Shown piece by piece: positions 9,169 through 57,012 of a stretch of 64,000 nt of DNA. The translations under genes and the position numbers were made by a program. How positions within the stretch are numbered: the first letter of the stretch is position 1; the number at the start of each line of letters is the position of its first letter. Under the pieces are notes generated by a model. It saw only the letters and a program-made list of their open reading frames with translations, was not told the origin of the DNA and did not search any database. The stretch covers positions 1 to 64,000 of IMG/VR virus record IMGVR_UViG_3300047548_000297; one strand, given 5' to 3'. This DNA comes from a virus.

Positions 9169-10194
9169 GTGGCCACACCACGATCAGCAGGAAGTAAACA
9201 GAAAGTTAATACATCGTCAAAGGTATTCTCTGACCTAAAGGATACTAGGGAGAAGATTCAAGGAAACTTGACTACGGCTCAGTATCTAAGAACTTATGAC
9301 ATACTGCTGTACACTGCGATGCGTGGAATAGTAGAACATACTAATTTCTTTGATACTTACCTAATACGTTTGCTTGGGTGGCAGGAAGTTAACCATCGAC
9401 GGAAAGTTTCGTTTCTTAAACGAACTGAACTACCTAGACTAGTTATTAATTTTCTTCTGCAAGATACGCCAGAAGCTAGATTCATAGCTATAAAGCAGCT
9501 TAAGCTAGACAGAGGTTTACGTGTAGAAATAATACGTGCATTCGTAGCTAGCCTATCCAAGTACTTAGCCTGCTGTAATTTGAATAGCGAGCTTAGTTTA
9601 GCTGAGTCAATTGAGTATAAAGCTCAGGTAGAAAAAGAGTATAACTACCCTGATCTATATAAACTATGTGTTGAGTCCTCCCTATGGCTAGACCGGGCCT
9701 TGGAGTTCAAGTCCATGATACAAGAGAAGTATATTCGCTTGTGTCTAGTAACAGCTCAACGAGATCATGCTACTTTCTTTTCTGGATCTATTGATCTAGA
9801 CGACGTAATTCATACTTATTTTATAGCATGCAGTCGAGCTATTGACAAGTGTGACGGTGATGCTGGAACACTAACTACACATATTCAGAACTGGTTCTTC
9901 ACCGCAAGAGAATCAGTTTGGGGCCAAAAGAATAAAACCAAACAAGTGTCTATGGATGCCTTTCTACAAAGACAAGAATCCACAGACTACGGAGAAGGTT
10001 TAGACGATGTAGACGAAGACGATGTGACCGTGCATTCTAGGGAACAAGAGCTAGAACATGATCATGAAGCACGTCAAATGTCAGCACTAGCGAAGATAGC
10101 TGACCCTCACGGTGCTGCTAGACTACTGCTAGGAATACCTGAGTTTTTAACCGAAGCCGAGCTTAAGAAGCTCAACAAACTAGTTAAGGAATAA
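9169..10194 (+). CDS. Sigma-70 region 2-like protein, putative phage sigma factor
   Basis: A 341-residue protein starting at GTG 9169 immediately after the previous stop, with GAAAGGGGG as ribosome site. Residues about 185-250 (YIRLCLVTAQRDHATFFSG, then IDLDDVIHTYFIACSRAIDKC, then THIQNWFFTARESVW) match the order of sigma-70 region 2: core-binding helix, the DLDDVI-type segment, then the -10-recognition helix. A region 4 helix-turn-helix is not obvious; the C-terminus is acidic followed by a helical lysine-rich end. It could direct RNA polymerase to the phage promoters proposed in this window. The family call is by pattern only. Confidence 0.55.
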   Translation: MATPRSAGSKQKVNTSSKVFSDLKDTREKIQGNLTTAQYLRTYDILLYTAMRGIVEHTNFFDTYLIRLLGWQEVNHRRKVSFLKRTELPRLVINFLLQDTPEARFIAIKQLKLDRGLRVEIIRAFVASLSKYLACCNLNSELSLAESIEYKAQVEKEYNYPDLYKLCVESSLWLDRALEFKSMIQEKYIRLCLVTAQRDHATFFSGSIDLDDVIHTYFIACSRAIDKCDGDAGTLTTHIQNWFFTARESVWGQKNKTKQVSMDAFLQRQESTDYGEGLDDVDEDDVTVHSREQELEHDHEARQMSALAKIADPHGAARLLLGIPEFLTEAELKKLNKLVKE

Positions 10195-23084: not shown

Positions 23085-26000
23085 TTACTTGTTCAAAAGT
23101 GCGTCTAGTTCTGTTCTCATTCTGGAGTTTTGTTCTGCAAGTTCTTGCAATGCTTTTATTATTACTGGGTATAAACCGTCCTTCGTAACCATTAGATGTT
23201 CTGGATTTGACTCATTGACTACTTTTAGATAATCGTTTGCTTCCCCTAGAGCTTCTTGTAGGTCTTGGGCTATAAAACCAGAGTCTTCTACTCCATTACG
23301 AGTTCCATCTCTAGCGTGCCATTCAAAACGAACTGGCTTTAGTTTATTAATTAGATTTAGTCCATCAGTTAATGGTCTAATATTAGTTTTGTCTCTGGCA
23401 TCAGAAACATTACTCCACCCTGCAGCATACATTCTGTATGTAGTATGCAGTCCATTACCTATAGTAACTTCGTTAGAAGCAGTTTGAGACGAAGCTAGCC
23501 CATCTATAACAATAACCCTAGATAAATTTACTCCTGAGTATGAATTATACAGTCCATTACCCAGTATCACAGACTGTGATATGTTATTTACTACAGAAGA
23601 GTTGAACATCTCCGATCCAAGTATAGTGGACTGTGATACTGTGCCTACACTATTAGCAGCTAGACATCTATATCCAACTAGTACGGATGAATTATAAAAT
23701 CCAGATACTGATCCAGCATTACTTCCTATTTCCACAGAGTATGTGTGTGTTCCAGCACGAGCCGCGTTAGCGCCTAGTGCAGTGGTATGAGTACCAGTAG
23801 CAGATTCTAGTGTCCTGCTACCAACAGCTACGTTGTTATCACCTGTTCCAGATCGTGCAAAAGAAGACCTGCGCCCAATGTACACAGAATCGGTCTGTAT
23901 GCCTGAAACTGTTCCTGATGTTTGCCTACCTGCTTCGTCTCCTATGTACACATCACCTATTACACTTGCAGTCTGCTCACAAACCTGACTACCAATACAA
24001 ACAGCATTAGCAACAATAGTAGTATTCCTATTAGCAGAAGATCCTATGGATACTAGATCAGAAACTGATGTTAAACTGTATCCAGACTCGACGCCTACGG
24101 CTACAGCTCTAGTTACAGAACTTGCGCTATACAGCGATTTTTGTCCTACAGCAATAATATTAGAAGCAGAAACTGCATTCCTTAAAGCATCCGTCCCTAC
24201 ACCTATGTTACTAGATCCAGATACAGAACTGCTTAAAACAGCTCCCCCTACAGCTATGTTATCCGATCCTGTAATATTTGATAGTAACGAAGATCCGCCT
24301 ACGCCCACGTTACGTAATCCAGAAGTTGTAGCTAGTAGCGTTCTATCACCAATTGCACAGTTTCCACTACCAGTTGTGTTATTAGCCAGGGCATTGTATC
24401 CAACAGCTATGTTTACGCTACCTGAGGTGTTGCTATATAAAGCACGACTACCAACAGCAGTATTCTCTATACCAGTGCCTACTGCTGCTGGATTAGCTGT
24501 CGCGAAAGAATAACTACCTATAGCAGTATTGCTGCTACCGGATGTATTAAATGCACCAGAGGATCTTCCTATGAATGTATTATATAGACCAGTAGTGTTA
24601 TAAAATCCTGAATTAAATCCTGCGCAAGTATTATCTGATCCAATAGTATTTGATTTTAAAGTGTCTAAACCAATAGCAACATTATAGCTACCAGTAGTAT
24701 TAGACAGCAAGGTATTGTTTCCCAGGGCAGTATTACTACTGCCTGTAGTATTTACGAATAAAGCACCATGACCTATGGCAAGATTATACGCGCCACTAGT
24801 TGTACTACGTAGAGCACTATCACCTATACCAATACAGTATTCGGCCGAGGTAGCTAATTCCATAGCCGCTATACCTATGGCTATATTATTAGCGCCGGTA
24901 CCTCCCTTAGCCCTTAGCCCAATTGATATCTGGTTTAAACCTGCACTATATGCTCTATGTCCTATGGTAGTGCTATAACTAGCGCTAGAATCTGCCCCTG
25001 ATCCAATTACTACACGACCATCGGCCACTGCGTTTGACCTCATAGCACTATCGCCAATGGCAACATTGGCATTTCCACCAGTAGCTTGGTCTAATGAATT
25101 TGATCCAACAACCACATTATTAAGTCCAGTAGCTAGTAGTCTACCAGACTCTACACCTATGCATATATTGTTGTACCCAGTTGTAACAGAACCTAACGAA
25201 TTAATACCTACAGCTACATTATTTGTTCCAGAGATAGAGTTTGGATTGGATCCTAATAAAATATTAGTAGCAGTTCCATTACTACCGATAGAAACACCAC
25301 TTATATTAGACAGTTTAGAATTTACTTCTAACCTTCCAGAGGCTGTATACGTAGGAAATACAGTTACAATGTCTTGGGTTAACGTAACCTGTTTTATGCT
25401 GTTAAATCCTAAGCTAAAAGAAGTTGTTCCCTTAGAACCAACATATAATGTACTGTCCTCAAGGATACGTAACCCACCTATGGCTGTATTATTCCGGCAC
25501 AGTTCATATACACCAGTTTCATTGTTACTAGTATTTAAAGTGACCGAATACGTACTAGGCCATCTATTTCTTAGGGTTGCATTTAGTCCTATGGACTTCA
25601 TATCGAAATTTATGCCAGCTGTGTTACTAGTCTGAAATCCAGTTCCAGTCATGTTCAGTGGATTTGGATAAGCTTGTCCTACAGCTATGCTATCAGATAC
25701 AGTAACTCCGCCTACAAAATTAATTCCAGGATCTACGTATCCAACTCTATGCCAGTCACCTGATCTAAACACATAAGGTATGTATCTAGAAGAAACGGAC
25801 GTATCATAATACAAGTTTGGTATACTTGGTGTAGTACCAAGAACAGGGGCACCTGTGCCATACTGAGCGTCTGTTGGATATACTCGTGTCCACGCAGAGG
25901 TACTTGGATCGTTTATATATAGGTCGTATCTTCCAGCAACAGACTTGTCTGCATAGAATGGGGGTGTGCTAGGAGTAGTTCCAAGTGGGGCTCCAATACC

Positions 26001-27092
26001 TATTTGAACCCTCGGAGCGTTAGCTATTGGAGTTACTACGTTTGTATTAAATGCAGTTACAAAGTCTTCTAGCCATTTCTTATGAATAGCATCATTGTCG
26101 TTTACTGGATTACCAACATTAGTTAGTCTGTAACTAGCAAAGTCCAGATTATTTATGGCAGCTCTACTACCATCTGTCATGAAAATCTTATTTAGATCTA
26201 TAGTCTGAAGGCCATTAGTTTGACCGGCACCTACCCCTGGGTTAAGGCCGTTTAAGAATCCAATAGCAGTTGATGTAAGATAGTTTCTTCGTACAACACT
26301 GAATGTATCACCAACTTGAGGTGGATATAGAAAGCTATTAGATACAGAATAGGCTTTAGTTCCAGCAGAATAGCCGGATATTACACGAATCGATCCTGTG
26401 TTTAAACCTGTAACTCCTTGAATAAGGAGTTCACCTACTGTAGTAGGATTAGTTGCGGACTGGGTGAATACTATGGTTGACGCAGTAGATCCAGAATCAA
26501 CTACTAGATTAGTGTGTATTTCTGTATCATACCCAGTTACCGACCATCTTGAATTATTTGAAAAAGCTAATACAGAGGACAGCTGACCCGGACTAGAAAC
26601 TTGGTATGTATTAGGTACAGCTATATATGCTGGAGGTAGAGAGTCTATTCCAGGAAGAGCTGGAATATTTATATTTATATCGGAGTTTCCAAGTTCTGCA
26701 TATATAGCATACGTAGTACCAGACGTAGGTATGTAGCAATCAATGCTAATAGCATTACCATCGCTATTAACGCTAGACTTTACTTTAGGAATCTGAGTTG
26801 TAGACGTGCCTATAGCAAATAGAACATTACCAGGAGCATATAGAGCTACTTCACCGAAGTTAAAGTTCCCTAGGGAGAAGTCTAGGTATATTGTGTACTT
26901 AACTAAATTTGATGCCTGTACTACAGGTTTAGACGGTGTACCAGAGTGTACCTCTGTTCCAGATATATCTATTTGCCCAACGCTAGGTGTATATCCAAAT
27001 GCACTGCCAAGCTTGAATGCCTGTAGATTAGGTGCTACACCAGGATTAGATTGGATAAGTAGCTGACCTGCAGTTGTTAGAACGAATTGCAT
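23085..27092 (-). CDS. Giant tail fibre 1 with S74 chaperone domain
   Basis: A 1335-residue fibre. Residues 1 to about 280 are an attachment domain (MQFVLTTAGQLLIQ...) shared with the fibres at 27096-30464 and 58622-60820. A linker follows, then about 480 residues of repeats with a 17-residue period (NxAVGxxALxxNTTGSG), like the head repeats of trimeric adhesins. The C-terminal domain is an intramolecular chaperone (peptidase S74) with the SDxRxK motif at Ser1230 and GFIAQDLQEAL. Members of this family trimerise the fibre and then cut themselves off just before that Ser, which would release about 106 residues. Likely receptor-binding long fibre. Confidence 0.88.
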   Translation of the reverse strand: MQFVLTTAGQLLIQSNPGVAPNLQAFKLGSAFGYTPSVGQIDISGTEVHSGTPSKPVVQASNLVKYTIYLDFSLGNFNFGEVALYAPGNVLFAIGTSTTQIPKVKSSVNSDGNAISIDCYIPTSGTTYAIYAELGNSDININIPALPGIDSLPPAYIAVPNTYQVSSPGQLSSVLAFSNNSRWSVTGYDTEIHTNLVVDSGSTASTIVFTQSATNPTTVGELLIQGVTGLNTGSIRVISGYSAGTKAYSVSNSFLYPPQVGDTFSVVRRNYLTSTAIGFLNGLNPGVGAGQTNGLQTIDLNKIFMTDGSRAAINNLDFASYRLTNVGNPVNDNDAIHKKWLEDFVTAFNTNVVTPIANAPRVQIGIGAPLGTTPSTPPFYADKSVAGRYDLYINDPSTSAWTRVYPTDAQYGTGAPVLGTTPSIPNLYYDTSVSSRYIPYVFRSGDWHRVGYVDPGINFVGGVTVSDSIAVGQAYPNPLNMTGTGFQTSNTAGINFDMKSIGLNATLRNRWPSTYSVTLNTSNNETGVYELCRNNTAIGGLRILEDSTLYVGSKGTTSFSLGFNSIKQVTLTQDIVTVFPTYTASGRLEVNSKLSNISGVSIGSNGTATNILLGSNPNSISGTNNVAVGINSLGSVTTGYNNICIGVESGRLLATGLNNVVVGSNSLDQATGGNANVAIGDSAMRSNAVADGRVVIGSGADSSASYSTTIGHRAYSAGLNQISIGLRAKGGTGANNIAIGIAAMELATSAEYCIGIGDSALRSTTSGAYNLAIGHGALFVNTTGSSNTALGNNTLLSNTTGSYNVAIGLDTLKSNTIGSDNTCAGFNSGFYNTTGLYNTFIGRSSGAFNTSGSSNTAIGSYSFATANPAAVGTGIENTAVGSRALYSNTSGSVNIAVGYNALANNTTGSGNCAIGDRTLLATTSGLRNVGVGGSSLLSNITGSDNIAVGGAVLSSSVSGSSNIGVGTDALRNAVSASNIIAVGQKSLYSASSVTRAVAVGVESGYSLTSVSDLVSIGSSANRNTTIVANAVCIGSQVCEQTASVIGDVYIGDEAGRQTSGTVSGIQTDSVYIGRRSSFARSGTGDNNVAVGSRTLESATGTHTTALGANAARAGTHTYSVEIGSNAGSVSGFYNSSVLVGYRCLAANSVGTVSQSTILGSEMFNSSVVNNISQSVILGNGLYNSYSGVNLSRVIVIDGLASSQTASNEVTIGNGLHTTYRMYAAGWSNVSDARDKTNIRPLTDGLNLINKLKPVRFEWHARDGTRNGVEDSGFIAQDLQEALGEANDYLKVVNESNPEHLMVTKDGLYPVIIKALQELAEQNSRMRTELDALLNK
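23700..25250 (-). repeat. 17-residue (51-base) coding repeats in fibre 1
   Basis: Degenerate 51-base units coding N-x-A-V-G-x-x-A-L-x-x-N-T-T-G-S-x run through this part of fibre 1. The DNA units differ too much for simple slippage, so the repeat is old or under selection, but long homology between units still allows deletion or duplication. Confidence 0.75.
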
Positions 27093-27095
27093 TAG

Positions 27096-30000
27096 TTATT
27101 CCTTTCTTATTTCACGTTTTAGTATTTCTAGTTCTGCTGTTAATTCGTTAACTGCATTAACCAGAACTGGAATTAAATAAGTAGTAGATAGTCTAAGTTG
27201 CTCTGGATTGTCTGTATTTACTAGTCTCAGATAAGAATTAGTAGTTGTACCTACTGTAGCTAGTACTTCCTGTGCTATAAAACCAGAATCCTCGTCACCA
27301 ACTCTAGCCCCATCTCGTAAGTTCCATTTGAACTTAACAGGACGCAGCTTATTTATAAGGCTCAGTCCTGTATCTAGAGTATTAATCTCGATCTTATCTC
27401 TTATATCAGATATGTTAGTCCATTGTGCAGTATACATGTTATAAGAGGTATGAGAGGAACTACCAAGTGTAACGGAGTTAGCAACACCTACAGAGGTATT
27501 AGGACCTATGAGTATAGCATTTGTAGCTGTAACTCTAGATCCCATACCTATGACTATAGAATTAGTTCCTACCGAATTTGATAGAGCGCCTATAGCTATG
27601 TTTCCAGTACTAGGTACTGTATTGTTTGAGTCTACTCCAGAGCTACGTCCTATAGCTATGTTATTAGCTCCATGTATAGTTGCTACATGTCCAATGGAAA
27701 CTGAATAATCTGCTAGTAAATTTACAGCAGACCCATATCCAACGGCTATAGAGTTAGTAGCATTAGCCTGGCAGTAACCACCTACGGCTACAGTATAGGA
27801 TACACCAGTATTAGCATAGGAAGCAAAGTCCCCAATAACAACATTATTAGACGCAGTAGAATCACATTCTCCTCTGGCGTATGTTCCAATAGCAATGTTT
27901 CTAGAACCAGAGACTCCTGACTGATTTCCTATGCTTATGTTATAACCTGTAGCATTTGTATTGCTGGATATATCAGTGCCTATAACAACACTGCGTCTAG
28001 CTGTATTGGGAATTATAGTTCCAGTATACATCGATCCTACAAATACTATATCTCCAGTACCCGTATACGTAGACAAAGCTGAATTGCCTATCGCTACAGT
28101 CTTGGTAGTAGATACAGCAGAAGTTAGAGCATTATAACCGATAGCTGTGTTACTACCTCCTGTAGTAGCAGAGGCTAATGCTCCGTATCCAACTGCAGTA
28201 CAGGGACCAGAAGTATTGTTATTATTAAACAGCGTTAGAGCTGAATGCCCTATAGCTGTATTATAATTACCATCGGTAGAAGTTGCAAGAGCACCTGTTC
28301 CAACAGAAGTATTACCACTCCCTATATTTAAATACCTACCAGAATTGTATCCAACCGCTACGTTAGTGCCTGTTGTTGTGGCATTTAATGCATAGGATCC
28401 AACAGCAGTATTACCTGTGCTTGTAGCTAGTGGAAGAGAAAATGCACCAACTGAAGTATTAGACTCTCCAGAAACAGAGCCACCAGAAATGTAGCCTACA
28501 AAGGTGTTATTATTGCCAGAGACTATGGATGTACCAGATCCACTTCCTACCGATACATTATTACTAGCAGAAGTGACTAGACCTCCAGACCCCTTTCCTA
28601 TAAACACGTTATTAGTGCCTGTACTAACATTAGCTAGCGGATGACTTAGACCCAAAGCACCTTGACCTATTCCTATATTAGTAGCTGTGGATCTTGATCC
28701 TATTTTTATAGGATAGCTCGCACTACCGTTAATGGTAACATCTGTATTGAAAGTAGGTGTAGATCGTATTAGCGTTGTATTATTGTTATTAGTACCAAAT
28801 ATTGTATTGCCTAGTAAACTAGCAACTCCAGATACATCTAGTGTGTTGGAAACGAGTGTAGGCCCAGAAGCATTTATGCCTGCTAGTGTAGATAAACCAG
28901 TTACAGTTAGTTCAGATCCAGAAATAGGTAGTCCAGACGATCCGGTACTTGCGATTCTATACCAAGTGCTGTTAGGAACATTATAAGCATAAGAAACTGG
29001 AGCTGAAGGCGTAGTTATGTCAATATATAGGCTAGGATATATAGGAGTAGATATAGTTGGTTCTCCAGTACCCGTCTGAGATAATGGGCTAAGCTCTCTA
29101 ACCTTGGAACTGATTGCTAGTTGTAAACTATTGGTTGAGGGAGAACTTATAGCAGAGCTTAGTCCGCTTGGAGTAAGAGCTACTAATCCAGATATACCAT
29201 CAGCGTGTTGAGCTGTAGTAGCTAGTCGCACAATACCAGAGGTTGCAGTACTAGAACTAGGTAGCTTATCCGAGGGTATACCATTTGCTATCCAGTCTAG
29301 TAGTACCGAGTGCTCAGCGTTATTTAGGTGATAACGTTCAGCAGCCGCACCGCCCTGAAGTCCTTGACTAGTATTATGCTGAAAACTATTTAGTTCATTA
29401 GAGATGCTAGAAGTTAGCGTTTGTAAGTTAACCGCATCTTGAACAGCTACAGGATTCGCAATACCTGTTATTCTGTTATTACCTAAGCTAAGAGCACCTG
29501 TCATTGGTTTGGTGCCATCAAGTCGTACTAGTACATCAACAGGATCGCTTACTAGTGCATTTATATGTCCAGAAGTAATCTGTGTATTAATACCACTTAA
29601 TAGATTCCAGTACTTTCCGCCCTGAAGAGTTTTTACGTAAATTCTAACAGTGTCACCAAAGTTAGGTAATAGTGTCAGTGGTGTATCAAATGTATATCTT
29701 CTGATATTTGATATAACATCAAGGGCTCTAACAGCACGAACAGTACCTACAGACTGCCCATCCACTATCTGAACTAGGACTTCACCGTATACACCGTTTG
29801 GATCTGGTATAGCTAGAGGTGAAGCTGGATTAAACTGCATATCTATAGTGTATGTGCCTGATCCTGATATAGGAATAGCCTCAGAATACATAGTATAGTC
29901 AGATATGCTCCATAGAGCATTATCCGATATAGCTAGTGTAGACTGTCTATCGGAAGCAGGAGATACTACTGAGTACACATTTGGTACTGCCTCCTTGGCT

Positions 30001-30464
30001 TGAGGCAATAGGTCTATTGAACCGACGCTCTGTAACATTAGTTCACTACTAGAATTAGCTAGATTAGCGTATGGATAATAGCCAGTAGCAACGCTAGAGG
30101 GTATATAACAGTCTATGGCAAGACTAGAACCCTGGGATATGCCATTTAGTTGGGATTTAAGTATCAATGAACTGGAAGTTCCTATAGCAAATGGTATACC
30201 TCCAGGTAGATATAAAATTACTTCGCCAAACGAGAACGTAGGAGCGTTATAGTCGATGAATAACGTATACCTAATTACATTCTGGTTTATAGAAGTTGGA
30301 ATTGATGGCGTACCTGAGTAAACCTGACTTCCAGCTAAAGAAGTTTGGTTAGACGACGGTAGATAGTTGACGCCAGAGCCAAGCTTGAATTCTGTAAGAT
30401 GAGGCAGCTGACCCTGGTGCTGCTCTATGTAGGTTTGTCCGGCAGTAGTTAGTACAAAATACAT
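27096..30464 (-). CDS. Giant tail fibre 2 with S74 chaperone domain
   Basis: A 1122-residue paralogue of fibre 1, three bases upstream of it in the same transcript. It has the same N-terminal attachment domain (MYFVLTTAGQTYIEQ), a middle region with a PSLYIDITTPSAP ... NSTWYRI module, about 330 residues of shorter adhesin-type repeats (NTAVGSYAL, NVAVGYNSG), and an S74 chaperone with SDIRDK at Ser1019 and GFIAQEV. Predicted self-cleavage would release about 104 residues. Repeats in fibre 2 are less regular than in fibre 1. Two fibres with different tips on one attachment type suggest two receptors or a hetero-fibre. Confidence 0.86.
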   Translation of the reverse strand: MYFVLTTAGQTYIEQHQGQLPHLTEFKLGSGVNYLPSSNQTSLAGSQVYSGTPSIPTSINQNVIRYTLFIDYNAPTFSFGEVILYLPGGIPFAIGTSSSLILKSQLNGISQGSSLAIDCYIPSSVATGYYPYANLANSSSELMLQSVGSIDLLPQAKEAVPNVYSVVSPASDRQSTLAISDNALWSISDYTMYSEAIPISGSGTYTIDMQFNPASPLAIPDPNGVYGEVLVQIVDGQSVGTVRAVRALDVISNIRRYTFDTPLTLLPNFGDTVRIYVKTLQGGKYWNLLSGINTQITSGHINALVSDPVDVLVRLDGTKPMTGALSLGNNRITGIANPVAVQDAVNLQTLTSSISNELNSFQHNTSQGLQGGAAAERYHLNNAEHSVLLDWIANGIPSDKLPSSSTATSGIVRLATTAQHADGISGLVALTPSGLSSAISSPSTNSLQLAISSKVRELSPLSQTGTGEPTISTPIYPSLYIDITTPSAPVSYAYNVPNSTWYRIASTGSSGLPISGSELTVTGLSTLAGINASGPTLVSNTLDVSGVASLLGNTIFGTNNNNTTLIRSTPTFNTDVTINGSASYPIKIGSRSTATNIGIGQGALGLSHPLANVSTGTNNVFIGKGSGGLVTSASNNVSVGSGSGTSIVSGNNNTFVGYISGGSVSGESNTSVGAFSLPLATSTGNTAVGSYALNATTTGTNVAVGYNSGRYLNIGSGNTSVGTGALATSTDGNYNTAIGHSALTLFNNNNTSGPCTAVGYGALASATTGGSNTAIGYNALTSAVSTTKTVAIGNSALSTYTGTGDIVFVGSMYTGTIIPNTARRSVVIGTDISSNTNATGYNISIGNQSGVSGSRNIAIGTYARGECDSTASNNVVIGDFASYANTGVSYTVAVGGYCQANATNSIAVGYGSAVNLLADYSVSIGHVATIHGANNIAIGRSSGVDSNNTVPSTGNIAIGALSNSVGTNSIVIGMGSRVTATNAILIGPNTSVGVANSVTLGSSSHTSYNMYTAQWTNISDIRDKIEINTLDTGLSLINKLRPVKFKWNLRDGARVGDEDSGFIAQEVLATVGTTTNSYLRLVNTDNPEQLRLSTTYLIPVLVNAVNELTAELEILKREIRKE

Positions 30465-30476
30465 AGTTGTCCTTGG

Positions 30477-32717
30477 TTATACGTATAAGGAAGCATCTCC
30501 ATGCTTCATTAGTAATTCTTCAGTAAGAACAGACAGAGGAGTAGGTTTAGTTTTTTCCAGCATCTCTTCCTCTTCTTCTCTAGCTACCTTAGCAAGTTCT
30601 TCTTCGGGGTCTAATTCAGGTTCGTCTTTTTTAGTTTCTGACTCACTACTATCAGTATCAGTATCAGTATCAGTATCAGTATCAGTAGACGAGTCGTTCT
30701 CAGTAGTATTCTCTTCTACTGTAGGTTCTTCCTCTTTAGCATCTTCTTCAACAGGAGCCTCTTCAACTACTTCAGGTTCAGGTGTAGTAGTGTCGTCAGC
30801 AGGCTCTTCTACAGTATCCATACTTTCTGGCAGCATAGGGACTGATGTATCTTCCAGTAAATCTTCTGTAGCATCTGGGAAAGAATCTGAGTCAAGGAAA
30901 GCGGGGGCAGATTCAGTTGCAGCTTCCACCTTAGTGTCTATCCCCACACCCAGTTTCTTTGCAAGATAAGCTGGAAGTGGAACCCCATAGTGTTCATAGA
31001 ACTTAGCTTGAGCATTAGGATCAATGTAGTTAGATAAGGCTGTAGCTCCAGTAACTTCTTCACCTTCTACGCCTCTACGCACATGGTTTAGCTTCTTACC
31101 TACTAGCATTGCAAGAGATTCTATCACCTGCTTGGCACCCTTTTTATCTAGCTTAGCATATTTTTTGAATGTCTTATCAAGTTCATCTTCAAATATCTTA
31201 GTTCCATGGTAAGTACGAATATTATGGATAGTAAATCCAGAAGGCACTTGATAGAAGTTCTTTAGCTCTGTATTAACTAGGTAATCACCTACTCTACGTG
31301 ATTTACCTTGCTTAGTGATGTAAGTAAATAAATGATCACTTCTAGTCTTATCACCTGACGTGGCTAGAATACGAAGAGCATCAACTATGTATTTATTTAA
31401 AGGATCTACTGCTTTAATAACATGCTTGGTAAGAACTGCGTCTTTACCCTTATATGTAATAGAAACTGAGTTCTGATTAAACCTAGTCTGTGATACTAGT
31501 ACAGTAGATAGACCATAAGTTTTTTCACCAGCAGTTGCGTTTTCCGCATTTCCAATGCGAGCTGCAGTTTGCCACACTAGTTCAATAACTAGTGCTACTA
31601 CCTGCTCTTTATCAGCAGGAGAAAACACCTTAGTAGGATTAACTCCAGTATCTGATCCAGTTAGTTCTCGCAGCCAGCGCTTTCTTATATGTTCTGCATA
31701 AGAACCAAATTCTTTAACCGCACCGAATTTACCAACAGCACTTTCCTGGTGATGTTCTTTAGTGTAATAGGTTTTCTTAGCAACTGCATCTTCTACTCTT
31801 CCATTCCAGTCCATTACTTTAAACTGGCCTTTCTTAGAAGGATCTTTGTTCATAATTACTACTGGCGTATACGCCCTGCGTGGACGACCTTCTATCATTT
31901 TTTTATCTTTGGTATATATTCTAGCGGCAGCATCTATATAACCATCGAAACCTAGAGGAAGATCGGACTCATATCCATTTTCTTCCATTTCGTCTAGCAG
32001 AGCTGAGTATGGAGCTAGCTTCTGACCTGACTCTCTTACAAAAGCTGCTACATACTGTAGCCAAGTATGGTTAAATTCCTTGCGGGCCTTAACGTATCTA
32101 TCCCATAACTCAGGAGCCTTTTCTTTCATCTCCTTTTCTTCCTGTGGAGATTTTATAAACAACGAGGAGTCACCATTGTATTCTTCTACAATAGACCTCA
32201 TTTCGTCTTGTATATCTTCTTGATTAGGAACATACTCGATGCTAAATATTTCTCCAGTCCATACTGGATAAACTAGGTCAGCTGATGCTCTGTCTAAAGC
32301 ATTTCTATACAAGTCTTTTCTAGTAGATAGATAGCTTCTGAAATTATTTATAAGAGCTTTAACCTGGGGCACTGAGTCCATGTAACCTTCATAGGTCTTT
32401 GCGTATCTACGTAGACCTAACTGAAAACTCCTTAGGTACGCAGAATCAATAGACTCTGTTTCTTGAACATGTTCAGCTACCTCGAATAGACCAGGAAAAT
32501 ACTCGTCTATAACTTCTATTTCAGGAGACTTGAATATATCTAGGGCTTCTTGCGGAAGTTGTTTATTTTCAACTAGACCTACTATAGCGAATAGTATATT
32601 CAGTACTAGCCTTACGTTTAATGGAGAAAACGCGGGATCTCCACGAGGAACTTGTACCTCAGGTAGATTAGCCCTAGGTATTGTTTGAATAGGCACTTGA
32701 TCTTGTAGATCATCCAT
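30477..32717 (-). CDS. Type IB DNA topoisomerase with acidic tail
   Basis: A 746-residue protein. Residues about 300-590 form a type IB topoisomerase: RIGN with Arg386, YGLSTV, the SITYKGKDA lysine strand, FTIHNIRTYHGT with Arg501, KLNH, and LSNYIDP with the nucleophile Tyr564. All catalytic residues (two Arg, Lys, His, Tyr) can be placed. The first 300 residues are helical and not recognised. Residues about 600-720 are acidic and include a run of Thr-Asp pairs. The gene lies between the gpI-like baseplate gene and the fibres on the - strand, an odd place for a DNA enzyme. It may be packaged or it may simply have moved in. The enzyme would relax supercoils by a 3'-phosphotyrosine mechanism. 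Confidence 0.8.
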   Translation of the reverse strand: MDDLQDQVPIQTIPRANLPEVQVPRGDPAFSPLNVRLVLNILFAIVGLVENKQLPQEALDIFKSPEIEVIDEYFPGLFEVAEHVQETESIDSAYLRSFQLGLRRYAKTYEGYMDSVPQVKALINNFRSYLSTRKDLYRNALDRASADLVYPVWTGEIFSIEYVPNQEDIQDEMRSIVEEYNGDSSLFIKSPQEEKEMKEKAPELWDRYVKARKEFNHTWLQYVAAFVRESGQKLAPYSALLDEMEENGYESDLPLGFDGYIDAAARIYTKDKKMIEGRPRRAYTPVVIMNKDPSKKGQFKVMDWNGRVEDAVAKKTYYTKEHHQESAVGKFGAVKEFGSYAEHIRKRWLRELTGSDTGVNPTKVFSPADKEQVVALVIELVWQTAARIGNAENATAGEKTYGLSTVLVSQTRFNQNSVSITYKGKDAVLTKHVIKAVDPLNKYIVDALRILATSGDKTRSDHLFTYITKQGKSRRVGDYLVNTELKNFYQVPSGFTIHNIRTYHGTKIFEDELDKTFKKYAKLDKKGAKQVIESLAMLVGKKLNHVRRGVEGEEVTGATALSNYIDPNAQAKFYEHYGVPLPAYLAKKLGVGIDTKVEAATESAPAFLDSDSFPDATEDLLEDTSVPMLPESMDTVEEPADDTTTPEPEVVEEAPVEEDAKEEEPTVEENTTENDSSTDTDTDTDTDTDSSESETKKDEPELDPEEELAKVAREEEEEMLEKTKPTPLSVLTEELLMKHGDASLYV
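30651..30686 (-). repeat. Hexanucleotide tandem repeat in topoisomerase tail
   Basis: Six perfect copies of ATCAGT (+ strand) coding for alternating Thr-Asp. Perfect short repeats of this kind change length by slippage in steps of two residues without breaking the frame. Confidence 0.9.
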
Positions 32718-32737: not shown

Positions 32738-33334
32738 TTAAAAATTGAGTATTTTCCATTTATGCACTACGAGCGTGTACGGAACTACAGAAAAGAATAT
32801 ATCAGTTAGTGATTGTAGATCAGTATGAACTAGAGTTGCTGGATCAACGTATACGTTTACATGACTAGTTGGATACCAGGATCCTCCATCATATATGCTA
32901 GTTCCTATGCCTGAGTCCCCCTCCTCTAGAAACGTAGCATAATCGCTAGTGTATAATTTAACTACCTGTATACGAACTTGCAGTGTATATGCTAGGAATG
33001 GAACGAACTGCTTGTTTCCTTTACTAAACCAGTACATAGATATATTAGCACATAACCTAGTGAGAGCCTCATTAGATATACCCTCAGTACTTCGTAGTTT
33101 CAGTCCTAGTCTATTAAGTTTTTTAATAGCAGTTTCTCTATCCATTACGTCTAGGCTAGACTGCGGGGTAAGCTCTAGTTCGTTAGTATAAGTAAACCTA
33201 AGTGCATCGTTTATTTTATACAGGTCTACTACCTTAGAATCTATGTCTTCTTTCCATACTTCGTCTACTGAATCTAGCAACGTTCTCCAAAATTCTATGT
33301 TTAGACTATCGGGTAATAGTATTGATCTTGGCAT
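32738..33334 (-). CDS. Putative baseplate protein (P2 gpI-like position)
   Basis: A protein of about 198 residues read from ATG 33334, two bases after the stop of the J-like gene; an upstream TTG at 33373 would add 13 residues. No ribosome site is clear at either. The order spike, gp25-like, J-like, this gene, fibres is that of P2 and Mu, where this place is held by gpI, a baseplate protein that joins the fibres. The sequence (SILLPDSLNIEFWRTLLDSVDEVW) has the short helical start seen in gpI-type proteins, but similarity is weak. Assignment is mainly by position. Confidence 0.5.
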   Translation of the reverse strand: MPRSILLPDSLNIEFWRTLLDSVDEVWKEDIDSKVVDLYKINDALRFTYTNELELTPQSSLDVMDRETAIKKLNRLGLKLRSTEGISNEALTRLCANISMYWFSKGNKQFVPFLAYTLQVRIQVVKLYTSDYATFLEEGDSGIGTSIYDGGSWYPTSHVNVYVDPATLVHTDLQSLTDIFFSVVPYTLVVHKWKILNF

Positions 33335-33335
33335 G

Positions 33336-35048
33336 CTATCTAGTCCGAGTTGAGTAGTTGGTTGAAATCTCAAGGTTATTAAGTTTTACGTACTGTGTAC
33401 TAGACTCGTTGTATACAGGTGCTGCTGCCCCAAGTACTAAGGATCCGTTGTCAAAAAACGTAGTCGTGTTTCCAGGAGTAACACCTAGAAGACCTTGTGA
33501 GGACTCTGTTCTACCATATACGCGATACTCCATAGCCCCCGCTACGCTAGGCCATGTAATAGTTATACTGCTATTATTAGTAGGAACAGTTATTATTACA
33601 TAGTTAGAAGGGGACGAGACACCTAATCCAACGTCCACCGACACTCCATATGCATAAGTTCCTGCTGCTAACATACCGCTGTTAGCTGTAACTACATAAC
33701 TAGGAGTATCAACTTTCTTGTTTGAAACAATTATGTCAGATAATGGAGAGGCTATTTCAAAATATTCTATGCCAGAATTAGCAGTGCGTATTGCATTTGC
33801 AATATCAGAGCGATAGAAATCGTATCCAAGTATACCTGACTTTAGTTCAAATAACTGTTGAATAGCGGATTCAACATCTAGTTTTACCTGAGATATATTA
33901 GCCCATGAATAACAGAATACAGTGGCTGTGATGTCTAGTAGTCTAGCGACGGGTGTTTCTAGTATTATCTTAGCAGTATAGTTAGACCGGTCTTCCATAT
34001 AGGATATAAATGTTGATTTCTCGGTTGCATTCCATATAGTAGAAGTAAGTAAGCTAACCCTAACTGTATTCATCCAAGTAAGAGCATAAGGATTGCTCTC
34101 TCTTTGAGACGTAGTAACTGCGTCTATGACCCCAGGATATTGTAGTGCAGTAGATACATACTGGGTCTTGGTAACAGCAGAGTTAAAAGTTCCAAAGTTA
34201 GGGGCACTAAGATTTTTATACCACAGAGCACTATCTTGATTACGTCCATTGTGTAGAGGTGTAGTTATTACACCTGTTACATTAGGATCTACTGCGCTTG
34301 TAACAACCTTGTCAACTAGATCCAGAGAATTACCATCTAGACCTAGTGTAACAACATAGGTTATATAAACAGTGTCAAGGGCACTGGGTTTAGACCCAAC
34401 GAATGAATTACCAAATAGTACAACTGCACGGCCATCAGGTAGCGTCCTATCCTGAAATCCCTGAGTATTGTACAGTGTCCATATACCATCTGTAACTCTA
34501 CGTATGCTTGTATTATTTATTGATACAAGAACATCGGCATCAGACACAGAGAAATCAGCCTCTGGAGTTACGAATGTGGCATAGTCCTCACCTAGACCAG
34601 AACTTTGGTTTACAATTACTTGGCCTTGATACAGTGTAACTGTTGTAGGTATACCGGGCGGCAAAGTAATAGATTTCCTATTAAAAAAGAATACACCTGC
34701 GTACTCAAACGTCGAATACGCAGGTATTATATTTGTAGTTGTAGAAGCTGATGTTAGTGTTACTAGGCACTCGGCTGGAGTTTTTCTAGTTAAACGCACT
34801 CCAGAAGAATCGGCTATAGCATAAATAGATCTTGTAGACTGAGCAGTTTCCTGAAATCCTTCTTGAACCGCTCGTATAATTTTTAGTTGGTCCAAGACTG
34901 ATATCGAGGCTAGAACGTCAATAAGGGAGTCAGCTACTGGAGAATCAACTGCGTTTTTCCAGGAGTCTTTTGAGGCTAGATAGGCTCTAATCTGTGATTT
35001 TACTGCATCAAAATCTGGATTAATAGTAGATAGTTGTAGATTAGACAT
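33336..35048 (-). CDS. Baseplate J-like protein (gpJ/gp6 family) with FN3-like end
   Basis: A 570-residue baseplate wedge protein. The first 440 residues have the layout of Mu gp47/P2 gpJ/T4 gp6: an N-terminal helical part (KSQIRAYLASKDSWKNAVDSPVADSLIDVLAS), a beta domain, and a helical C-terminal domain. Residues about 445-560 are an added beta-sandwich module (AAGTYAYGVSV, then ITWPSVAGAMEYRVYGR) that is also found inserted in the tail sheath protein. It forms the wedge ring with the gp25-like protein upstream. Confidence 0.78.
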   Translation of the reverse strand: MSNLQLSTINPDFDAVKSQIRAYLASKDSWKNAVDSPVADSLIDVLASISVLDQLKIIRAVQEGFQETAQSTRSIYAIADSSGVRLTRKTPAECLVTLTSASTTTNIIPAYSTFEYAGVFFFNRKSITLPPGIPTTVTLYQGQVIVNQSSGLGEDYATFVTPEADFSVSDADVLVSINNTSIRRVTDGIWTLYNTQGFQDRTLPDGRAVVLFGNSFVGSKPSALDTVYITYVVTLGLDGNSLDLVDKVVTSAVDPNVTGVITTPLHNGRNQDSALWYKNLSAPNFGTFNSAVTKTQYVSTALQYPGVIDAVTTSQRESNPYALTWMNTVRVSLLTSTIWNATEKSTFISYMEDRSNYTAKIILETPVARLLDITATVFCYSWANISQVKLDVESAIQQLFELKSGILGYDFYRSDIANAIRTANSGIEYFEIASPLSDIIVSNKKVDTPSYVVTANSGMLAAGTYAYGVSVDVGLGVSSPSNYVIITVPTNNSSITITWPSVAGAMEYRVYGRTESSQGLLGVTPGNTTTFFDNGSLVLGAAAPVYNESSTQYVKLNNLEISTNYSTRTR

Positions 35049-35471
35049 TTAGTATCCATTAGGTTGAAGTAGCATAGTCATGTTCTCTGTGCTATCAGAG
35101 CCTACTACTTTAAAAGTTATACTTACTTTATAACCATTTATACTGGTGTAGGGTGTTACTTCAATGTCACCAGCATTGACGGTCACTCTAGGTTCCCATT
35201 TATCTATTGCATTTACTATGGACGACCTTATTACAAGAGCTGTAATAGAATCCATAGGTTCATTTATAAATTTTATAAGATCCGAACCCCAACTTGTATT
35301 AAACGTTCTACTTCTAGATCCTATGTGAGATGTTATAAGCAGTCGTATAGCCGCCTTTATAGCCTGAAGTCCAGATACGCTTAGAGATGAGCTAGACTCA
35401 GGATTATAAAATGGATTTATGTCATAAAAAGGAGAACTCGACCTCAACGTAGATATAGGTAACGTCGCCAT
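35049..35471 (-). CDS. gp25-like baseplate wedge protein (GPW/gp25 family)
   Basis: A 140-residue protein of the size and pattern of T4 gp25/P2 gpW: an N-terminal strand region, the helix GLQAIKAAIRLLITSHIGSR, then RTFNTSWGSDLIKFINEP, and near the end the conserved W-E-P-R-V (DKWEPRVTVNAGDIEV). It starts sheath assembly around the baseplate in T4. It ends one base before the J-like gene begins. Confidence 0.85.
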   Translation of the reverse strand: MATLPISTLRSSSPFYDINPFYNPESSSSLSVSGLQAIKAAIRLLITSHIGSRSRTFNTSWGSDLIKFINEPMDSITALVIRSSIVNAIDKWEPRVTVNAGDIEVTPYTSINGYKVSITFKVVGSDSTENMTMLLQPNGY

Positions 35472-35480
35472 ATATAATCC

Positions 35481-36188
35481 TTAAACTGGTGGATCGGTAA
35501 CACCTGGGCCACGAGATATGCCTGAGTGGGCGTGTGTGCTACTTACGTCAGTTCCATTGTTAGTTAATGTACCAGTAGTACTAGTATTACCCTGTATATC
35601 AGTAGTTCCTACAATGCTAGTTGTAGAAGTTTCGGCTCTATACGTTGGAGTTTGTATTAATATGGACTTGGAAGCATTTAGACTAAAGTTATTACACGAA
35701 TAAGCTATGTCATCTACAGAATGAACGGTTACTTTTCCGTTGTCTGCTACAGTTAAACGTGTTCCTGACTTATGAAGAAAATGCACTATAACTTGTCCAG
35801 ATGTTATATCTATGTAAAATAGATTGTTAGCTGGATCTAACCATCCACGTCTATTAGGATAGTTATTAGCAAGCTCACCTGATACAGTGGTTTTGCTGGT
35901 ATGTAGGCAACTACTAACAACTCCGTAGTGTATATCTCCGCCTTGAAACTCTACCATAACTGTAGATCCAACTACAGGAACATTTACTGAGTATGCAGAT
36001 TCAGTCATACCAAATAAAGAGTGCTGAGCTGGAAAGCACCAGGGCAAATTAGCTGGATCACCAGTTAGCAAGTTTGGTATTTCTACTTTTACTCTCTGTA
36101 GTTTTTTAGGATCGTTATTATCAACTACTTTTCCTATAAAAGGAATTGAATAGTCAGGTGACTCAAACTGATTTAGGTTATTAAACAT
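35481..36188 (-). CDS. Baseplate spike, gpV/gp5 OB-fold type
   Basis: A 235-residue spike protein. Residues about 10-120 form the OB-fold (GKVVDNNDPKKLQRVKVEIPN, then NVPVVGSTVMVEFQGGD), followed by beta-helix repeats and a tip with STHAHSG at about residues 217-223, where two His in an HxH can bind an iron ion as in P2 gpV. No lysozyme domain is present. It pierces the outer membrane at contraction. Confidence 0.85.
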   Translation of the reverse strand: MFNNLNQFESPDYSIPFIGKVVDNNDPKKLQRVKVEIPNLLTGDPANLPWCFPAQHSLFGMTESAYSVNVPVVGSTVMVEFQGGDIHYGVVSSCLHTSKTTVSGELANNYPNRRGWLDPANNLFYIDITSGQVIVHFLHKSGTRLTVADNGKVTVHSVDDIAYSCNNFSLNASKSILIQTPTYRAETSTTSIVGTTDIQGNTSTTGTLTNNGTDVSSTHAHSGISRGPGVTDPPV

Positions 36189-47117: not shown

Positions 47118-49055
47118 TTATAGGCTAGCTAGAGTCTTCTCGTCTACTTCTAAACCTTCCTTGGAGATGACCAAGCTTAGCTGGATTTCTCGCACTGGAA
47201 TGATAGGAGTGATGATTATAGCTACGGCTAGAGTTCCGCTATTTACAAGAGCAGGTGGATTGTTAGACGAGTCAATAACTACACGGTATTTAGAGATACC
47301 GCGACCTGCCTTTACCACGTCTAGGTACTGTTCAAGCGCAAACTGAATCTGTTTGCGCAGAATATCATCATTAGGCTCCTGAAGCGAATAAATCAGGTAG
47401 TTATACGCAGCGCGCTTTATGATATTACATAGTACACGAATGCTTATGAGCTGAAGAGCAGAACTTCTATTCAACAGAGTGTTCTGTTCCCAGAATGCAA
47501 TACCCCTACCAATAAATTTACGAACATACGAGATGTTGGCAAGAGTTACTAGCGTCGCTTCTCCATCATCATAGGCTTCACGAATGCCAAGCGTAATGCC
47601 GTTTAGTTGGCCTCTATTTAGGCCAGCAGTCGAGAACCATGGCTGAGTAGAGCGGAAGGTTCTAGCCAGAAGTCCAGCTATAGCGCCCGAAGGAGGAACA
47701 TACAGCAGCTTTCCATTGATGGGATCAGACTGTAGCAAGTCTTGAGCAAGTAGAGCAGAGTATGAAGAATTTAGATTTAGATCTAAGTTTCTGAAGTCTA
47801 CTACTGACTGGGCGCTTTGCTTGGTAGATGGAGCATCTAGGTACGCAACACAGTCATTTCTGGTTTGTGCTACATAGTCCATGTATCGCTGTACGATAAC
47901 TGAAGTCTTTCCACTGTTGATAAGAACATCAAGCGTATATAGTTCTTTGTTGAGGAAAACAGACCACTTGTTATTTATATCAGCTGTAGTTGGTGCTGTA
48001 CCAGAACTACCACCAGCAAGATTAGCTTTCGGAGCTGAGTACAGAACTGGAGTTGATACAAGCATACCAACGTTAGACTGTACTCTAATATAACGAGAGA
48101 AAGGATTGATTCTCTGTGTAACCTCCATCTGTGCGCCAGTATCATCCGTCTGTTCAGTTAGCGAGCAGTTAAAACTCTCTACTGGAACACTGGTAGATAC
48201 AGAAGTATCGTATACACGAAGAGTAAACAGTGGTGAAGGAGCAGCTAGACCAGCAGTGCTAGTAATAGGTGGCTTCGTAATATCAGGCGTTATAATACCT
48301 AGGTCTTGGAAGCTAAGTGTAGCAGCGCCAACTTGAGCTATAAGATACATGTTACCAGATACTCTACCGTATACCTTGTAACCAATAGCTCCGGTTAGAG
48401 CAGGCCAGTTTACGGTAATGGTATTAGTAGTTGTAGCAGAACCAACTACGACGGTTAGAGGTGCTGAAGCCAAAGTTTCAGTACCACCAGCAGCAATAGC
48501 TGAAACCACGTATTCATACGTAGCTGCAACTAGTTGACCGCCAACAGAAGTTGTAGTTCCGGTTAGACCTGTAACGGTTTCGAGGTTTGCAGCTTCCATA
48601 GAAACCGCGAGATTATTACCTAGTGAACCTTGTCCCCTAGCCGGAGTTATTAGGTAGAGTGGAGTTTCAGTAACTGGTGTGTAAGAACCCCAGTCAGGAT
48701 TGTCTGGATCAACAACACCAGCAGGTAGACCAGCAACTACAGTCTTTAGCGAGGCGTTTAGTTTGATAACTGCCGCCGCGTATTTTGCACCTGCACCTGT
48801 AGCTCTAATAGCCCACAGGGAATTACCTTCACGCAGATAGTCTAGGGCTGCATAATGATCATACGAAACTGCAGCATTTGGATTACCATAATCGAATAGG
48901 AAGTCATCAGGACTAGAATAGAACGTAGCCTTGTCTCTGCCTTGAGCTGATACAACTACAATAGCAGCAGTAGCAGCACTAACTCCACTTAGAGAAGTAC
49001 TTAGATCAACCTCATTTATGCGCACATCACTGGCGCGTCTAGCAAGAACTGCCAT
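47118..49055 (-). CDS. Tail sheath protein
   Basis: A 645-residue contractile sheath protein. It has the N-terminal RRASDVRINEVDLSTSLSGVSA strand, an FYSSPDDFLFDYGNPN segment, and the C-terminal core (GIAFWEQNTLLNRSSALQLISIRVL, then QEPNDDILRKQIQFALEQYL and GRGISKYRVVID) of myovirus sheaths. Residues about 165-262 hold an inserted FN3-like module (AATYEYVVSAIAAGG, then ITVNWPALTGAIGYKVYGR) that also occurs at the end of the J-like protein; it should project to the outside of the tail. Confidence 0.9.
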   Translation of the reverse strand: MAVLARRASDVRINEVDLSTSLSGVSAATAAIVVVSAQGRDKATFYSSPDDFLFDYGNPNAAVSYDHYAALDYLREGNSLWAIRATGAGAKYAAAVIKLNASLKTVVAGLPAGVVDPDNPDWGSYTPVTETPLYLITPARGQGSLGNNLAVSMEAANLETVTGLTGTTTSVGGQLVAATYEYVVSAIAAGGTETLASAPLTVVVGSATTTNTITVNWPALTGAIGYKVYGRVSGNMYLIAQVGAATLSFQDLGIITPDITKPPITSTAGLAAPSPLFTLRVYDTSVSTSVPVESFNCSLTEQTDDTGAQMEVTQRINPFSRYIRVQSNVGMLVSTPVLYSAPKANLAGGSSGTAPTTADINNKWSVFLNKELYTLDVLINSGKTSVIVQRYMDYVAQTRNDCVAYLDAPSTKQSAQSVVDFRNLDLNLNSSYSALLAQDLLQSDPINGKLLYVPPSGAIAGLLARTFRSTQPWFSTAGLNRGQLNGITLGIREAYDDGEATLVTLANISYVRKFIGRGIAFWEQNTLLNRSSALQLISIRVLCNIIKRAAYNYLIYSLQEPNDDILRKQIQFALEQYLDVVKAGRGISKYRVVIDSSNNPPALVNSGTLAVAIIITPIIPVREIQLSLVISKEGLEVDEKTLASL

Positions 49056-56394: not shown

Positions 56395-57012
56395 TTATTT
56401 TTGCTCTTTTTCTTCGTACAAGTTTGACCATTTAAGGTTATTTAAGTCAGAGTCTTTATGCTTAATTCTACCTTTAGGCCAGGAGCCCGTCTGCAGTAAC
56501 CATATTACGCGGTTTAACCTATAAACTTCTCCATCTATTTTTATTATATGTTGCCCTGAGCTGTGCTTAAAACCACCAGGGCTACCCTTTGGTACCATGG
56601 GATTTATATCGAGTTTCCAAGATATAGCACCTGTCTCTGGAGAGTAGTTCAGATATTTATACGCTGTTTTAAAGTCTAGCTTTTCTTGCTTAGAGTCGTC
56701 TATTAAACCTTCTGCGTATACTAGGAAACTAGAAGTAAGCCTTTCTATTTTTTTGCTAGAGCTGTCTAATTCCCTTGACGTAGTTGGATTAACTAAGTCG
56801 TGTTCAGTAGGAAATAATTTTACCTTGGTGCTATTAGCTAGAAGTCTTAGGTTAGTGAAAAAGGCTAAGTTTAGCTCAGAGTAGTTTTTTAATACAACGT
56901 TTACAGTTTTGTCCCTGGCTACTGTAGCACACTCTATAGTGGTGTCCTCCATGTTAGGTTTTAGACCAAGCGCTACGCAAACGTCTACTAACGAGTGTAG
57001 TTTAGTATTCAT
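56395..57012 (-). CDS. HNH/AP2-like protein with degenerate catalytic residues
   Basis: A 205-residue protein. Residues about 115-200 follow the pattern of phage HNH homing endonucleases: LNYSPETGAISWKLD, IIKIDGEVYRLNRVIWLLQT, GSWPKGRIKHKDSDLNN and LKWSNLYE. The His of the usual HR pair is Asn (RLNRVIW) and the DH pair is KH, so DNA cutting is doubtful. The first 110 residues are not recognised. It overlaps the endolysin stop by four bases (ATGA). It may be a decayed homing gene or a DNA-binding protein recruited to the lysis unit. Confidence 0.6.
   Translation of the reverse strand: MNTKLHSLVDVCVALGLKPNMEDTTIECATVARDKTVNVVLKNYSELNLAFFTNLRLLANSTKVKLFPTEHDLVNPTTSRELDSSSKKIERLTSSFLVYAEGLIDDSKQEKLDFKTAYKYLNYSPETGAISWKLDINPMVPKGSPGGFKHSSGQHIIKIDGEVYRLNRVIWLLQTGSWPKGRIKHKDSDLNNLKWSNLYEEKEQK

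Follow-up and report, generated by a model that had tools for sequence, protein, structure and literature searches.

The window analysed here, a 64,000-nucleotide stretch of a 66.8-kb IMG/VR virus fragment from a jumbo-type phage, carries among its baseplate and tail fibre genes an ORF that very probably encodes an active type IB topoisomerase of PHROG_23460, a family specific to jumbo phages, to judge from profile matches and a predicted structure. On balance, we lean towards a role for this enzyme as a late-expressed swivelase inside the infected cell, additional to the type II topoisomerase of the phage. An earlier note on this DNA had described the gene order as spike, gp25-like, J-like, I-like and fibres, with a 746-residue topoisomerase between the I-like and fibre genes. 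The window ORF list gives the topoisomerase exactly there, and domain and family matches recovered the order:

35481-36188, minus strand: baseplate spike (OB fold, base_V; PF04717)
35049-35471, minus strand: gp25-like baseplate wedge protein (PF04965; PHROG_261)
33336-35048, minus strand: J-like baseplate wedge protein (PF04865; PHROG_219)
32738-33373, minus strand: I-like baseplate protein, directly upstream of the topoisomerase with a 20-bp gap (PHROG_14098, tail)
30477-32717, minus strand: topoisomerase IB gene for a 746-aa protein (ATG start, closely preceded by a GGAG-like ribosome site; PF01028; PHROG_23460, 1.3e-78)
27096-30464, minus strand: tail fibre with an S74 chaperone domain (S74 peptidase), directly downstream of the topoisomerase with a 12-bp gap (PF13884; PHROG_4636)
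23085-27092, minus strand: second fibre with an S74 chaperone domain (PF13884)

These genes lie at the end of a late-gene strand running from 54.5 to 23.1 kb, which begins with a structural protein, the major capsid protein (PHROG_2522), sheath and tubes and continues through a tape-measure-like protein and a transglycosylase to the spike. The left arm of the window, on the plus strand, holds replication and nucleotide genes and a sigma factor (9169-10194). The nearest capsid proteins are those of the jumbo phages BcepSauron, BcepSaruman and Motura and of the IMG/VR records G002 and G003, and homologues of the I-like protein are present in G002, G003, Motura and BcepSauron. The I-like ORF is listed from a TTG that falls within the J gene, giving a 38-bp overlap, and translation probably begins at an internal ATG instead. 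Towards its C-terminus, at about residues 440-550, the J-like protein matches part of an ORF of about 650 aa at 47118-49055, a sheath homologue in Motura; the match is seen in many relatives, as if the two proteins had one added domain in common. An HNH endonuclease gene (PHROG_99; 56395-57012, minus strand) lies between the capsid region and the fibre genes of the right arm.

Several lines of evidence bear on the identity of the enzyme. PF01028 matches residues 322-547 (E=1.7e-14), and the match to PHROG_23460, which is filed under unknown function, spans positions 157-557 of a 565-position profile and thus reaches beyond the catalytic core. When a family profile built from ten relatives was compared with PDB structures, it matched archaeal topoisomerase IB (6z01, 2.7e-21) and that of Deinococcus (2f4q, 1.3e-18), as well as human, Leishmania and variola topoisomerase IB structures. 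AlphaFold models the core with confidence, and the 22 top-ranked PDB matches to the predicted fold are without exception type IB topoisomerases. The parts of the protein, all on the minus strand, are as follows:

31980-32660: family-specific, all-helical N-terminal domain, residues about 20-246 (AlphaFold pLDDT 87)
31758-31958: beta-rich segment ahead of the catalytic domain, residues about 254-320 (secondary structure of the model)
31077-31754: catalytic core, residues 322-547 (PF01028, PDB profile and fold matches)
31557-31559: Arg387, the first catalytic arginine (aligns with the topoisomerase IB arginine; kept in 42 of 42 members)
31443-31445: Lys425, the catalytic lysine of the beta hairpin, GKD (PDB profile and family alignments)
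31215-31226: His498-x-x-Arg501 motif (family and PDB profile alignments)
31083-31085: His545 (family alignments)
31026-31028: Tyr564, the nucleophile, NYIDP (aligns with ATSLRNYIDP of 6z01; kept in 41 of 42 members, with one gap)
30480-30941: acidic, low-complexity C-terminal tail, residues about 593-746 (composition; mostly disordered in the model)

The catalytic set R387, K425, R501, H545 and Y564 thus occurs in order with the PF01028 fold. The claims of topoisomerase IB identity and of a fully placed set of catalytic residues are both borne out, by PF01028, the PDB profile, the predicted fold and an alignment that holds around Tyr564 and the two arginines, with K425 and H545 in place and the set kept in the family. 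At the position of His498, the aligned solved type IB enzymes (archaeal, Deinococcus) have the lysine of a KxxR motif. This histidine was also invariant in two family alignments made earlier; its constancy and that of R501 in the 42-member set arise partly from selection, because 27 of the 42 sequences were retrieved by a DNA pattern that contains the HK-R motif, while the other residues are unaffected. The family-wide histidine in place of the KxxR lysine represents a natural hybrid of the active sites of topoisomerase IB and tyrosine recombinases. An HxxR motif is found in integrases, and the window protein, with H498xxR501, could be read as a tyrosine recombinase instead, all the more as weak Phage_integrase matches occur in four of the ten relatives (best 5e-4). 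However, PF01028 matches all ten relatives, at best with 3.6e-23, and the predicted fold matches topoisomerase IB at about 1e-8 and tyrosine recombinases only at E-values of at least 0.07. As integrase models match worse than topoisomerase IB by both profile and fold, we consider a recombinase very improbable.

Outside the core, the protein is more distinctive. The N-terminal domain gave no PDB fold match with an E-value below 3 and aligns with nine relatives at 16-27% identity; the window version is acidic (pI 4.6), those of the relatives mostly basic. The earlier description of 300 N-terminal residues of unknown nature therefore stands for residues about 20-246, but residues about 254-320 are beta in the model and probably belong to the usual cap region of topoisomerase IB. 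The long acidic tail noted previously is clear: the final 148 residues include 52 D/E and 8 K/R (pI 4.05), and the model places two helices in the tail, at 704-722 and 728-738. Within the clade of six records described below, tails differ in length and sequence, and all but one are long and acidic or low-complexity. Most finish with a short acidic-hydrophobic stretch, which looks like a tethered docking peptide. A strict link between acidic tail and baseplate position held for the first 13 members compared and was broken by L054 (from G012), with a short tail only, and L056 (from G013), whose tail is proline-rich. Because L054 belongs to the same clade, tail function stays a matter of conjecture.

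Members of this family have been noted before, as a “phage-specific topoisomerase I” was already named in Motura, NCTB, RSL1, Lu11 and PaBG (Iyer et al. 2021, PMC7824862). The window protein shares with these PHROG_23460 enzymes the fold, the active-site residues and the helical N-terminal domain at 22-34% identity, but differs from the isolates in its location in a baseplate/fibre operon, its acidic N-terminal domain and its long acidic tail, which they lack. With archaeal (6z01) and Deinococcus (2f4q) topoisomerase IB it has the catalytic core and the R/K/R/H/Y residues in common, whereas the phage family has the histidine for the KxxR lysine and a helical N-terminal domain that matched nothing in the PDB. 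The poxvirus enzymes (variola 2h7f, vaccinia H6R) have the same fold and a late gene, but sequence similarity is restricted to part of the core, and a place in the virion is hypothetical for the phage protein. As far as we found in the literature searched, phage type IB topoisomerases are rare and apparently uncharacterised. Neither the clade at the baseplate locus, with its tails, nor the replacement of lysine by histidine appeared in that literature, which covered few subscription papers, and we regard both as new.

The gene arrangement bears on when the enzyme is made. Between 43508 and 23085, no intergenic gap exceeds 20 bp, which leaves little room for a promoter of the topoisomerase gene itself, and no sigma-70-like promoter was found on the minus strand from 34467 to 28288. 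Because of this, the gene is likely co-transcribed with the late baseplate and fibre genes; it lies on their strand, its place by J and I is kept in relatives, and its codon usage is nearer to that of late than of early genes. Matches to a T4-type late promoter (TATAAATA) numbered 12 against 6.9 expected, none of them in an intergenic gap ahead of the topoisomerase gene, and the pattern with a downstream ATG occurred at chance level. As the phage has its own sigma factor, a promoter of unknown type may lie inside the I or J gene. Late expression with the tail genes, as proposed in the earlier note, thus agrees with the position in the late operon and with probable co-transcription in the window, but late timing cannot be generalised to the family, because Motura, RSL1 and others keep the topoisomerase gene away from J. 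Upstream of the topoisomerase, the J-like gene contains a terminator-like hairpin of 16 pairs with a T run behind it (34693-34727, minus strand).

As a single-protein query against IMG/VR, the window topoisomerase returned no matches, and relatives were found through an MCP query, the relatives' own topoisomerases and the DNA pattern. The gene order, which the earlier note suggested checking in related phages, recurs in part. In six environmental records, the window among them, the topoisomerase gene follows shortly after J and I on the same strand and has fibre genes as neighbours. J and I are followed by three small ORFs (one a fibre protein) and then the topoisomerase in G002, by an 857-aa fibre protein in G003, by a fibre and a fibre-assembly chaperone in L030, and by a single long ORF in both L054 and L056; in the window alone, the topoisomerase follows I immediately and precedes the fibres. 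In a 42-member tree, the six form one clade (support 99/97, present in all 200 bootstrap trees); identities to the window protein are 25-33% where measured. Elsewhere the order is not kept: the gene is far from J in Motura, RSL1 and the Motura-like G006, and near capsid genes in PaBG and NCTB, while in Lu11, HRDY3 and PhiXhv roughly 20 kb separate it from J. BcepSauron gave no match, nor did jumbo phages of Erwinia and Dickeya, among others.

These varied contexts raise the question of whether the enzyme mainly serves genome replication, its place in a late operon being a chance result of neutral rearrangement. In Motura, it lies among small genes near those for an ssDNA-binding protein and dCMP deaminase, in PaBG it adjoins thymidylate kinase, MmcB and SprT, and beyond the topoisomerase gene of G002 and G013 the same strand encodes an SF2 helicase, a DnaB-like helicase and TerL, the large subunit of the terminase, so that this block is not purely structural. 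Yet the position is kept in six divergent records despite changes in the fibre genes, and phages of the group without topoisomerase IB have the type II enzyme only, which makes a chiefly replicative role improbable in our view. A type II topoisomerase (PF00521) was present in 27 of the 28 group records tested, with or without topoisomerase IB, which argues that the type IB enzyme is accessory and not the sole replicative topoisomerase. As the record is a fragment, we assume from these relatives that the window phage carries a type II enzyme of its own.

Another alternative is a virion enzyme, synthesised late alongside the tail proteins, carried in the particle and ejected together with the genome, whose incoming DNA it would relax for early transcription. 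A role of this kind in the virion has been proposed for the poxvirus type IB enzyme. The gene's setting in the baseplate/fibre operon, beside fibre genes in the window, is consistent with this, as is the late expression of vaccinia H6R (PMC11980589). A DNA topoisomerase of unspecified type is reported from RSL1 virions and a topoisomerase II subunit from those of phAPEC6 (PMC7247149). RSL1 encodes a member of the same type IB family, a protein of about 559 aa at 56.6-58.2 kb of IMG/VR record 642918914, but also a type II enzyme, and its virion topoisomerase is therefore ambiguous. In PaBG, the topoisomerase gp84 is absent from the 14 virion bands of Table 1, while its neighbour gp83 is present, although minor proteins would escape such a list (PMC7412058). 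A late position does not single out a virion role either, as the strand runs on to helicases and TerL in G002 and G013, and the topoisomerase is the last gene ahead of convergent genes in L054. The earlier preference for packaging, ejection or a virion function over replication is therefore unsupported, also given the distance from J in Motura, RSL1 and G006, and we judge packaging into the particle to be unlikely. The more specific proposal, that the enzyme of the baseplate-locus clade is incorporated during tail or capsid assembly and enters the cell together with the genome, its acidic tail acting as a loading or restraint signal, likewise seems doubtful to us; if true, it would be the phage counterpart of the enzyme in poxvirus particles.

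We therefore favour, by a modest degree of confidence, the late intracellular swivelase. Transcribed late within the baseplate/fibre transcript, the enzyme would nick one strand through a covalent 3'-phosphotyrosine and let the nicked duplex swivel without ATP. Inside the infected cell, it would relax supercoils from late transcription, as well as those from late recombination-dependent replication and from DNA entry into the packaging motor, working beside the phage's own type II topoisomerase. The acidic disordered tail may temper DNA binding or dock a partner, like the acidic C-terminal tails of SSB-type proteins. A clade whose enzyme is encoded beside baseplate and fibre genes and mostly bears a variable acidic tail offers a testable case for a second topoisomerase late in jumbo-phage infection, whether in late transcription, packaging or ejection.

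Some further observations concern the relatives. In L003 (10648-16230), L006 (8068-13113) and L035 (6127-11686), the topoisomerase IB gene is close to genes for a SprT/Spartan-like protease, an MmcB-like nuclease and thymidylate kinase, a grouping of PaBG-like and HRDY3-like phages in which SprT is annotated in PaBG and matches PF10263 in L035. Spartan proteases elsewhere clear DNA-protein crosslinks, such as trapped topoisomerases. In G002 (IMGVR_UViG_3300048672_000512), the match to the type II topoisomerase A subunit (174584-177112) falls into two parts about 1.2 kb apart in a single 936-aa open frame, which is probably due to an intein. The TerL ORF of the same record (L021, 6383-10090, minus strand) has 1235 aa against 737 aa in G013, the extra length being a probable intein or fused domain, and its I-like protein (L022, 4611-5957, minus strand) is extended to 448 aa by near-identical C-terminal repeats (EDFHVNLPTIQSGALDVTINYVNYNNGLV).
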